64,000 bases of DNA, from the NCBI RefSeq assembly GCF_003148685.1, contig NZ_QGGR01000004.1, positions 310,001 through 374,000 of the forward strand, written 5' to 3'. Position numbers and translations under genes: made by a program. The DNA is from Actinoplanes xinjiangensis (lineage in GTDB: Bacteria; Actinomycetota; Actinomycetes; Mycobacteriales; Micromonosporaceae). Shown here piece after piece: positions 22,186-24,719 of the stretch. Each line of letters begins with the position of its first letter. The first letter of the stretch is position 1. The notes below the pieces were generated by a model. That model was not told the DNA's origin. It worked only from the letters and a program-made list of their open reading frames with translations, and ran no database searches.

Positions 22186-23109
22186 TCAGCCGCGGGCTTC
22201 GAGGGCCTGCTTGTAGAGGCGGCCTGCCCGGTAGGAGGAGCGGACCAGCGGCCCGCTCATCACGCCGGCGAAGCCGATCTGCTCGGCCTCCTCGCTGAGC
22301 TCGACGAACTCTTCCGGCTTCACCCAGCGCTCGACCGGGTGGTGGCGTGGGGTGGGGCGGAGGTACTGCGTGATGGTGATCAGCTCACAGCCGGCCGCGT
22401 GGAGGTCGCGGAGGGCGGAGGTCACCTCGGCGCGGTCTTCGCCCATGCCGAGGATCAGGTTGCTCTTGGTGACGAGGCCGGCGGCGCGGGCCTGGGTGAT
22501 CACGTCGAGGGAGCGCTCGTAGCGGAAACCGGGACGGATGCGCTTGAAGATGCGCGGCACGGTCTCCAGGTTGTGGGCGAGCACCTCGGGTGCGGCACCG
22601 AAGACCTCGGCGAGCTGGGCCGGGTCGGCGTTGAAGTCGGGGATCAGCAGCTCGACGCCGCAGCCGGGCATCAGCTTGTGGATCTGGCGGACCGTCTCCG
22701 CGTAGAGCCAGGCGCCGCCGTCGGGCAGGTCGTCGCGGGCGACGCCGGTGACGGTGGCGTAGCGCAGGCCCATCGTGGCGACCGACTCGCCGACGCGGCG
22801 GGGCTCGTCGGCGTCGAACTCGGCCGGCTTACCGGTGTCGATCTGGCAGAAGTCGCAGCGGCGGGTGCACTGGTCACCGCCGATGAGGAAGGTGGCCTCG
22901 CGGTCTTCCCAGCACTCGTAGATGTTGGGGCAGCCGGCCTCCTGGCAGACCGTGTGCAGGCCTTCCTTCTGGACGCGGCCGCGCATCTCGGTGTACTCAG
23001 GGCCCATCTTGGCCTTGACCTTGATCCACGGGGGTTTCCGCTCGATGGGAGTCTCGGCGTTGCGCGCTTCGATGCGCAGCATGCGGCGGCCCTCGGGAGC
23101 AATAGTCAC
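22186..23109 (-). CDS. lipA: Lipoyl synthase
   Basis: Radical-SAM enzyme that inserts two sulfurs into octanoyl groups on lipoyl domains. Both cluster motifs are present: the auxiliary cluster motif [12 protein letters not shown] and the SAM-cluster motif CTRRCDFC. The C-terminus has the conserved Ser that ligates the auxiliary cluster (VRSSYRAG). About 307 residues, normal length. The GTG at 23109 (giving [16 protein letters not shown], the usual actinobacterial N-terminus) is preferred over GTG 23130. Works with LipB (26.2 kb) to modify SucB (31.7 kb). Cytosolic. Confidence 0.96.
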
Positions 23110-23215
23110 ACCTCGAAGATACGCCCGCACAGGCCGGGCACAGCGCAGGGGCGACGAGGCTCACGTGACCATTCCTGTGAGCGCTGTCACCCATAATTCA
23201 GGAGATCGCCGCAAC

Positions 23216-23460
23216 GGTGACTGTTAGCGTTCGGCCTCACGGTGTTGATGGGACCGAGTAGCGCTTCGATCCGCCGGCCGAGAGAGCCACCCGGCAGCTG
23301 GGAAGGGTGGCCCGGGCGCCGGAGCGTGAAGACACCCCGGAGCCGCAGTACGACAAAGAGGCGCTCGCGAGCAGTGAGCGCGAAGGTGCGGTGGTACCGC
23401 GAGGATCCCGCTCGCCCGCACCTCCCTGGGGCCGCGTTGCAGTCACCAGAGGAGGTCCCG
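23216..23460 (+). ncRNA. T-box riboswitch leader, Asp (GAC) specifier, translational type
   Basis: The conserved T-box AAGGTGCGGTGGTACCGCG is at 23383-23401, with TGGT as the tRNA-acceptor-binding bulge. Upstream lies the actinobacterial leader pattern GGACCGAGTAGCGC, GGCCGAGAGAGCC and GCGTGAAGACACCCCGGAGC. In actinobacterial ileS T-boxes, as I remember them, the same position reads GTGAAGATCACCCC with specifier ATC; here it is GAC (23331-23333) followed by A. AGGTGCGG (23384-23391) can pair with CCGCACCT (23416-23423). The competing helix pairs ACCTCCCTGG (23420-23429) with CCAGAGGAGGT (23446-23456), which hides the aspS ribosome site GGAGGT. So uncharged tRNA-Asp should free the ribosome site. 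tRNA binding is inference; the pairing is visible in the sequence. Confidence 0.92.
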
Positions 23461-23462
23461 CC

Positions 23463-24719
23463 ATGCAACGCATCCTCTCCACCGAACTGGCCACGCAGGA
23501 ACCGGGCTGCGAGGTCACCATCGCCGGGTGGATCCATCGCCGCCGGCTGCTCAAGTCGGTCGCTTTCCTGATCGTCCGGGACACCGCCGGGTTCAGTCAG
23601 GTGGTCGTCACCGAGCCGGCCGCCCGCGAGCGGCTGGAGCAGCTCACCGAGGAGAGCGTCGTCGAGGTGACCGCCGTGGTCACCGCCAACGAGCAGGCGC
23701 CATACGGAGTGGAGCTGACGTCTCCCTCTTTCCGCGAACTGAGCCGGGTGGCCGTACCCCTGCCGTTTGAAATGCATCGTCCCGCGCTGAGCGCGGGCCT
23801 TTCCGCCCAGCTGGACCATGCTGCTCTGGCTCTGCGGCATCCGAGCCGGGCGGCGAGCCTGCGGGTCGCGGCCGCCGCGACGAAGGGTTTCCGGGAGGCG
23901 CTGGAGGCGCAGCGGTTCGTCGAGATCCACACTCCGAAGATCGTCGGGTCGGCGACCGAGTCCGGGGCGAACGTCTTCAAGATCGACTATTTCGGGCGGC
24001 CGGGTTATCTGGCGCAGTCGCCGCAGTTCTACAAGCAGTTGATGGTCGGGGTGTTCGAGCGCGTCTACGAGGTGGGGCCGGTGTTCCGGGCCGAGCCGAG
24101 CGACACCGCGCGGCATCTGGCGCAGTACACGTCGCTGGACGCGGAGATGGGTTTCATCACCGACCACCGGGACGTGATGGCCGCGCTCACCCGAACGATC
24201 AAGGGAATGCTCGGCGAGATCGGCACCCTGGAAACGGAGATCAGGGACGAGATCCCGGCGGTGCACTTCAGTGAGGCGCTGCGGATCGCCGGCGCGCCCG
24301 CGGACGAGCCCGACCTGGCCCCGGCACACGAGCGGGCGCTGGGGGAGTGGGCGCTGCGCGAGCACGGTTCGGAGTTCCTGTTCGTGACCGGCTACCCGAT
24401 GCGCAAACGGCCGTTCTACACCCATCCCGACCCGGCCGACCCGACCTGGTCGAACGGTTTCGACCTGCTGTTCCGTGGTCTGGAGATCGTGACCGGCGGG
24501 CAGCGCCTGCACCGGTACGAGGACTACGTCGCGGCCCTCACCAGACAGGGTGAGCCGCTCGAACCGTACGCGGGTTATCTCGACGGGTTCCGCTACGGCA
24601 TGCCGCCGCACGGTGGCTGGGCGATCGGACTGGAGCGGTTCGTGGCGCGGCTGACCGGGATCGGGAACGTCCGCGAGACGACCGCGTTCCCCCGCGACCT
24701 GAACCGGATCGCGCCCTAG
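23463..24719 (+). CDS. aspS: Short archaeal-type aspartyl-tRNA synthetase (AspS2-like)
   Basis: 418 residues, much shorter than the roughly 590-residue bacterial AspRS because the GAD insertion is absent. An N-terminal OB-fold anticodon domain (VTIAGWIHRRRLLKSVAFLI) is followed by a class II catalytic core. Motif 2 is FRAEPSDTARHLAQYTSLDA and motif 3 is WAIGLERFVARLTGIGN...FPRD, both as in archaeal AspRS. It charges tRNA-Asp, and in this subclass often tRNA-Asn too. The ATG at 23463 lies 7 nt after GGAGGT, which the T-box leader can sequester. A housekeeping long AspRS is probably elsewhere, making this an inducible second copy (inference). Confidence 0.92.
   Translation: MQRILSTELATQEPGCEVTIAGWIHRRRLLKSVAFLIVRDTAGFSQVVVTEPAARERLEQLTEESVVEVTAVVTANEQAPYGVELTSPSFRELSRVAVPLPFEMHRPALSAGLSAQLDHAALALRHPSRAASLRVAAAATKGFREALEAQRFVEIHTPKIVGSATESGANVFKIDYFGRPGYLAQSPQFYKQLMVGVFERVYEVGPVFRAEPSDTARHLAQYTSLDAEMGFITDHRDVMAALTRTIKGMLGEIGTLETEIRDEIPAVHFSEALRIAGAPADEPDLAPAHERALGEWALREHGSEFLFVTGYPMRKRPFYTHPDPADPTWSNGFDLLFRGLEIVTGGQRLHRYEDYVAALTRQGEPLEPYAGYLDGFRYGMPPHGGWAIGLERFVARLTGIGNVRETTAFPRDLNRIAP

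Follow-up and report, generated by a model that had tools for sequence, protein, structure and literature searches.

Within the stretch of Actinoplanes xinjiangensis DNA analysed here (64,000 nucleotides of contig NZ_QGGR01000004.1, hereafter the window), a gene for a short aspartyl-tRNA synthetase (AspRS) lies behind a leader with the appearance of a T-box. This raises the questions of which tRNA the leader reads, at what level it acts, and why this soil actinomycete would keep a further AspRS under such control. The first-pass annotation had proposed that a second AspRS is controlled by a translational T-box specific for Asp, a proposal that the sequence analyses described below support well. 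The reading that we consider very probable, judging from sequence comparison, is a translational tRNA-Asp-specific T-box riboswitch on a spare archaeal-type enzyme (AspRS2, encoded by aspS2), which would stand in for the long AspRS in an emergency.

For the Actinobacteria, only ileS T-boxes are reported in the excerpt of PMC1262725, a T-box of the his operon is mentioned for Corynebacterium glutamicum (PMC9413887), and actinobacterial genomes were scanned with a class II model for TBDB (PMC7778990), which may already list the Asp leaders described here. None of the literature matches listed mentions an actinobacterial Asp T-box in its title or in the opening of its abstract. The parts are known, but little seems to have been written on the pairing of a T-box with a spare AspRS or on how widely it occurs among actinobacteria.

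Detection of the leader

The features of the locus are compiled in Table 1. The covariance model RF00230 aligns to 23236-23422 on the forward strand with 48.6 bits (cmscan, E 8.1e-10, model positions 1-219). The Rfam gathering score is 93, which is why the standard Rfam scan of the window at the curated cut-off gave no match. Across the whole genome, the same model at E <= 0.01 finds two places, the aspS2 leader (5.4e-9) and an ileS leader (7.8e-6). All 20 sampled loci, ileS included, score under the curated cut-off, and routine scans therefore miss such leaders. At E <= 0.05, RF00230 recovers 6 of 12 sampled loci, mostly those with a long Stem I, and gives no match at the short Stem I aspS2 loci L027, L048, L056, L061 and L231, nor at L151; the T-box call at these missed loci rests on the model built here from 33 long Stem I leaders and on reading by eye.

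Table 1. Features of the aspS2 locus (window positions) and the second T-box of the genome.
Feature	Position	Strand	Basis or remark
CRP-like palindrome TGTGA-N6-TCAC, 5' of the presumed promoter	23176..23190	+	Pattern in 30/30 fetched genus loci
Conserved GTTARCGT, likely -10 region	23223..23230	+	Pattern in 26/30 fetched genus loci; role presumed
T-box leader of aspS2	23236-23456	+	In a 10.8-Mb genome
Stem I, long form; AGUA 23257-23260, AGAGA bulge 23281-23285, distal GCUG loop	23240..23345	+	cmscan alignment, covariation helices 1-5
Specifier GAC (Asp), after GUGAA	23331..23333	+	cmscan alignment; codon position is our reading, model line unlabelled
Stem III hairpin	23361..23381	+	Covariation helix 6, 3 pairs changed on both sides
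Antisequestrator	23385..23422	+	Helices 7-8, 100% of cells paired, 2 pairs changed on both sides
T-box bulge UGGUACC, within antisequestrator	23392-23398	+	Predicted base-pairing of UGGU with the NCCA end of the tRNA
Sequestrator hairpin ACCUCCCUGG / CCAGAGGAGGU, hiding the Shine-Dalgarno	23420..23456	+	88.4% of cells paired, no covariation; -15.9 kcal/mol
GCGUUGCA in sequestrator loop	23434..23441	+	Complementary to 23464-23471 at start codon
Shine-Dalgarno GGAGG, hidden by sequestrator	23451-23455	+	
aspS2, archaeal-type (short) AspRS, 418 aa, probably non-discriminating	23463..24719	+	NF003483, Pfam, PDB
ileS T-box, second T-box of the genome	G000:C4:14319-14494 (locus L167)		AUC, UGGU, ultrashort Stem I; read by eye

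The interval first annotated runs from about 20 nt ahead of the leader, close to the likely promoter, to the A of the start codon. A sigma-70 scan found no promoter. The distance from the CRP-like palindrome to the GTTAACGT box falls into two spacing classes, about 47 and 54-56 nt, which lie about one helical turn apart; the palindrome could act on aspS2 or on the lipA-like gene that runs divergently.

Covariation and structure of the leader

For the structure, 33 leaders with a long Stem I were aligned (alignment A2), comprising 29 loci of the genus, that of the window included, and 4 from other genera. The 42 pairs come from the Rfam alignment and the sequence of the window and were placed manually, which tilts the percentage of paired cells in favour of the drawing: 97.4% of the cells are paired, compared with 93.5% in shuffles and at most 51.9% when the pairs are slid. 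Changes on both sides were found in 15 of the 42 pairs across the 33 leaders; shuffles give 5.4, with 0 of 500 attaining 15, and slid pairs give no more than 5. This covariation excludes chance as the source of the leader structure. Examples are the antisequestrator, where GGUGCGG/CCGCACC becomes GGUGUGG/CCACACC, and the helix beside the specifier, where GGG/CCC becomes GGA/UCC. One drawn pair, at A2 columns 63/76, is paired in just 12 of the 33 rows and probably does not belong to the structure. Free-energy folding of the leader gave values no better than those of shuffles (z -0.03) and is uninformative as evidence. With the RF00230 match and this covariation, the T-box sequence, the antisequestrator and the helix hiding the Shine-Dalgarno (SD), all three of which had been noticed from the letters of the window, are present.

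Specifier codon and tRNA fit

It had also been claimed that the specifier is GAC instead of an Ile codon. The covariance alignment, set beforehand as the check on this point, places GAC and not another codon at the specifier position, and GAC is found in all 89 family loci that bear a T-box: 70 in the GAAGAC context (68 called by pattern, 2 by eye) and 19 in short Stem I loops (all by eye), so that 21 calls were made by eye. The codon agrees with the downstream gene, GAC standing ahead of an AspRS gene. The ileS T-box of the same genome, which serves as an internal control, shows AUC and not GAC. An Asn or Ile specifier for the aspS2 leader is ruled out by the 89 loci.

All 89 loci carry either UGGU or UGGC in the T-box bulge. 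The tRNAs were read by eye from fetched stretches of the genome, where the regular tRNA-Asp (GUC) and tRNA-Asn (GUU) genes end in G73 and tRNA-Ile in A73. The bulge therefore fits the discriminator base of tRNA-Asp, UGGU/UGGC facing G73, with UGGU-G73 being a wobble pair in this species. Because G73 is common to tRNA-Asp and tRNA-Asn, the acceptor end fits both, and it is the specifier that decides. At G000:C19:35397-38565 (within locus L095), a dense array was seen in which about 3.2 kb hold 19 matches to a tRNA model, not all of them strong.

Expression platform and proposed mechanism

The trinucleotide ACC at 23420-23422 is common to the antisequestrator and the sequestrator, and the UCC that follows at 23423-23425, outside the antisequestrator, is kept in at least 90% of the A2 rows. 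The absence of covariation in the sequestrator across the aligned leaders is to be expected from the invariance of its SD arm. No terminator-like site was found in 23100-23520. An SD sequestrator that excludes the antisequestrator through the shared ACC, with no terminator, is the class II arrangement, and these two characteristics indicate that control is probably at the translational level. A transcriptional, terminator-type T-box would be in keeping with the long Stem I, which is usual in transcriptional T-boxes; the lack of a terminator-like site and the SD-complementary arm found in its place make it very improbable.

Under translational control, the switching scheme can be modelled on the ileS T-boxes of Actinobacteria (PMC1262725, PMC7583486 and PMC10651847). 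Stem I would read the tRNA anticodon GUC through the specifier GAC, and the bulge UGGU (UGGC in many relatives) would probe the free G73-CCA end of the tRNA. When tRNA-Asp is charged, ACCUCC would pair with the SD and translation would be off; when it is uncharged, its end would stabilise the antisequestrator, ACC would be reclaimed, the SD would be freed and AspRS2 would be made. AspRS2 would thus be an emergency AspRS for times when tRNA-Asp is uncharged, and may also provide Asp-tRNA-Asn.

The ileS leaders, as described there, share with the aspS2 leader the T-box bulge, the antisequestrator and an SD-hiding hairpin without terminator, and their intermediate and ultrashort forms of Stem I recur in some aspS2 relatives. 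The aspS2 leader differs from them in its GAC specifier, in a tRNA of the G73 type and in controlling a second AspRS; in Actinoplanes it also has a long Stem I, with Stem II not seen.

Distribution of AspRS2 and its T-box

AspRS2 matches were found in 64 of 67 genomes of the genus (one of them, G009, at 41% identity) and in 294 of 354 genomes of the family, covering 34 of 44 genera, with some matches being weak. For the leaders, 90 family loci were fetched: the 30 best-scoring of the 64 genus places and 60 loci of other genera chosen with E <= 1e-90. A T-box is present at 89 of them, and none was found at L049. The distant copy of G009 (G009:C1:3635242-3636540, locus L249), the only one of its kind sampled, has no T-box, and no closer aspS2 is reported in that member of the genus. 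A few genomes of genus g23 have weak AspRS2 matches only. In genus g15, at least 13 genomes (G109-G121) carry the long AspRS and have no aspS2 at E <= 1e-50, which is likely to reflect a genus-wide loss.

Beyond the family, a class sample of 394 genomes gave an AspRS2 match in 22, of which 19 lie outside the family, in nine other families. A T-box precedes 18 of these 19 (17 recognised by motif, including the 40%-identical L165, and L148 by model); at L164, where the protein match starts at residue 93, none was found. A model built from the 33 leaders of A2 and applied at E <= 0.01 found 74 of the 76 aspS2 loci outside the building set, some only in part, and matched none of the 23 control loci, 22 of them from the genome under study and the ileS T-box among them. 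In a further set of named loci, the best 80 of 590 confirmed, a T-box was seen in 78: 70 by a strict pattern and 8 (L198, L205, L209, L215, L219, L230, L242, L243) by a relaxed pattern written after those loci had been viewed, with L201 and L208 lacking one. This set includes Nonomuraea, Kribbella, Nocardioides, Microbacterium, Amycolatopsis, Paractinoplanes, Micromonospora and four Chloroflexota records; it overlaps the family set (L168 is G041), so the counts are not additive.

AspRS2 as a second enzyme and its possible roles

The gene behind the leader had been described as a short archaeal-type AspRS, probably a second copy, and both parts of this description hold. AspRS2 scores 510.9 bits against NF003483 (cut-off 353), is a short form without the GAD domain, and contains only the Pfam domains PF01336 and PF00152. 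Its best PDB match is 1n9w/3kfu, a "non-discriminating and archaeal-type" AspRS; against TIGR00458 (aspS_nondisc) it reaches 340.7, below the cut-off of 368.4. The other check set beforehand, for a long-form aspS elsewhere in the genome, also bears the proposal out: this genome encodes a long AspRS, with 34% identity to AspRS2 over query residues 10-286. A long AspRS is present in 352 of 354 genomes of the family, and among the good-quality ones in 335 of 335, which rules out AspRS2 as the sole AspRS. The long enzyme is presumably the everyday one.

The same protein type occurs beside a long bacterial AspRS in Deinococcus-Thermus (1n9w/3kfu), for which the literature consulted describes no T-box control. 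In 2014, bacteria with an additional AspRS were considered rare, and Deinococcus-Thermus was given as the group with the archaeal type (PMC4206432). What is called rare there has a match in most genomes of this family, with its own tRNA sensor where sampled.

No AsnRS above the cut-off was found in the 20 genomes searched, this one included, and GatB is present. Asn-tRNA is apparently produced by transamidation here. AspRS2 therefore comes as an addition to a cell that seems to amidate, and it can probably supply Asp-tRNA-Asn as well. Residues H25 and P80 are invariant in 12 of 12 aligned AspRS2 proteins, as in 1n9w and unlike 3nel (W and K); these residues presumably mark whether an AspRS is non-discriminating or not. 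On these grounds AspRS2 would probably charge both tRNA-Asp and tRNA-Asn.

From here it might be argued that AspRS2 mainly supplies Asn-tRNA through tRNA-dependent amidation and that the T-box reads Asp only as a proxy; the AspRS2-GatCAB system of Clostridium acetobutylicum offers a comparison. The missing AsnRS, GatB and the residues of the presumed non-discriminating type speak for this role. The specifier, however, is GAC throughout the T-box-bearing family loci, aspS2 does not adjoin gat genes (gatB is on another contig), and the long AspRS has an RRDHGG motif like that of mycobacteria and may already serve tRNA-Asn; we consider this role quite unlikely. C. acetobutylicum resembles our organism in having a T-box on an extra AspRS gene together with tRNA-dependent amidation. 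It differs in that its aspS2-gatCAB system, in work by Saad from 2012 and 2013, reportedly has Asn/Glu-type specifiers, transcriptional control and an operon with gatCAB. In that species, one of three aspS genes is under T-box control (PMC2494555).

The need for the preferred emergency enzyme could arise from poor Asp charging in general or from compounds that poison the long AspRS, namely nucleoside sulfamates or those of the microcin C type; both are possibilities, as is the stress or inhibitor-resistance role first suggested for AspRS2. In the stricter form of the second, AspRS2 would mainly be inhibitor-tolerant: with the long AspRS blocked by a natural inhibitor, such as a nucleoside sulfamate (for example dealanylascamycin) or a compound of the microcin C type, the pool of uncharged tRNA-Asp would grow, and the same T-box would turn on AspRS2 so that translation continues. 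Resistance by way of an inducible spare synthetase that belongs to a different type is known, and the two AspRSs of this genome are strongly different. The Streptomyces compound dealanylascamycin gives an Asp adduct within Plasmodium AspRS (PMC12262901), and processed microcin C inhibits AspRS and increases uncharged tRNA-Asp (PMC7136475). Against this stand the family-wide carriage and the position of aspS2 between a lipA-like and a lipB-like gene. In addition, AspRS2 is nearer in sequence to eukaryotic cytoplasmic AspRS (4j15, 7e-67 in the PDB search) than to that of E. coli (1c0a, 5.5e-35); eukaryotic-type enzymes are those shown to be hijacked by dealanylascamycin (PMC12262901). We regard a mainly inhibitor-tolerant AspRS2 as possible, if somewhat unlikely. 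The self-resistance gene of a local gene cluster is not favoured either: the neighbours of aspS2 are the lipA-like gene, a PQQ-repeat protein, the lipB-like gene and two proteins lacking any Pfam match, and such a setting, with carriage across the genus and the family, does not resemble that of a producer's self-resistance gene. With this spread and a tRNA sensor of its own, AspRS2 makes it possible to test directly whether spare synthetases of this kind give protection from natural poisons of AspRS.

A possible start-codon lock

What is new at this locus is the match between GCGUUGCA in the leader and AUGCAACGC at the gene start, by which the SD and the start codon might be locked together. 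GCGUUGCA is the exact complement of UGCAACGC (23464-23471), which starts inside the start codon. Together with the sequestrator, the start-codon helix would form a pseudoknot of the H type whose loops measure 4, 4 and 7 nt. The start-codon hairpin alone has -11.9 kcal/mol and the sequestrator -15.9 kcal/mol; of the two, only the sequestrator appears in the nested minimum-energy fold.

Both GCGUUGC and GCAACGC are found in 59 of the 89 family loci, the gene side only in 6, the leader side only in 6, and neither in 18; a Fisher test on the leader-motif and gene-motif loci ignores their relatedness. Five of the leader-side-only loci (L028, L043, L045, L122, L126) have G-U-compatible partners on the gene side, and L035 loses an end pair. 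In 10 of the 18 loci with neither motif, the protein match begins after residue 1, so their start codon is not fixed. Of the 68 loci with Gln at codon 2, 67 use CAA; in the remainder of these genes, CAA accounts for 65 of 970 Gln codons. CAA at codon 2 would also be favoured by a gene start rich in A, and CAA is kept in 8 loci without the leader motif (6 with the full GCAACGC, plus L130 and L134), so the pairing is not proven. No double compensatory change in the GCGUUGCA/UGCAACGC pairing was found among the family loci, and a competing local hairpin, seen by eye in other genera, counts against the lock. Outside the family, no motif of the GCGUUGCA type was noticed in passing. From these sequence comparisons, the start-codon lock is a good hypothesis and not a result. 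The broader proposal, of an actinomycete-wide inducible Asp-charging back-up tuned against AspRS poisoning, combined in Micromonosporaceae with an H-type pseudoknot platform (GCGUUGCA/UGCAACGC and ACCUCC/SD) that would lock the SD and the start codon until uncharged tRNA-Asp binds, is speculative and, in our view, rather unlikely.

Variation of Stem I

The aspS2 leaders vary in Stem I, as read by eye. Those of Actinoplanes have a long Stem I with Stem II not seen; in others, such as L035, a long Stem I is followed by a Stem II-like stretch; and in L027 (within the genus), L037, L048 and L231 Stem I is short or ultrashort and GAC is kept. With one gene, one codon and a Stem I that ranges from long to ultrashort, these leaders form a natural series for asking what the role of Stem I is. 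Two Micromonospora leaders, L181 and L198, are without Stem I and specifier, yet the gene, the later stems and the T-box end are retained. In both (L181, Micromonospora sp. NBS 11-29; L198, CP22), inverted-repeat-like GTTAAC/GGAAGGGCCCC stretches stand in place of Stem I, and a natural loss of tRNA reading through a small repeat is possible.
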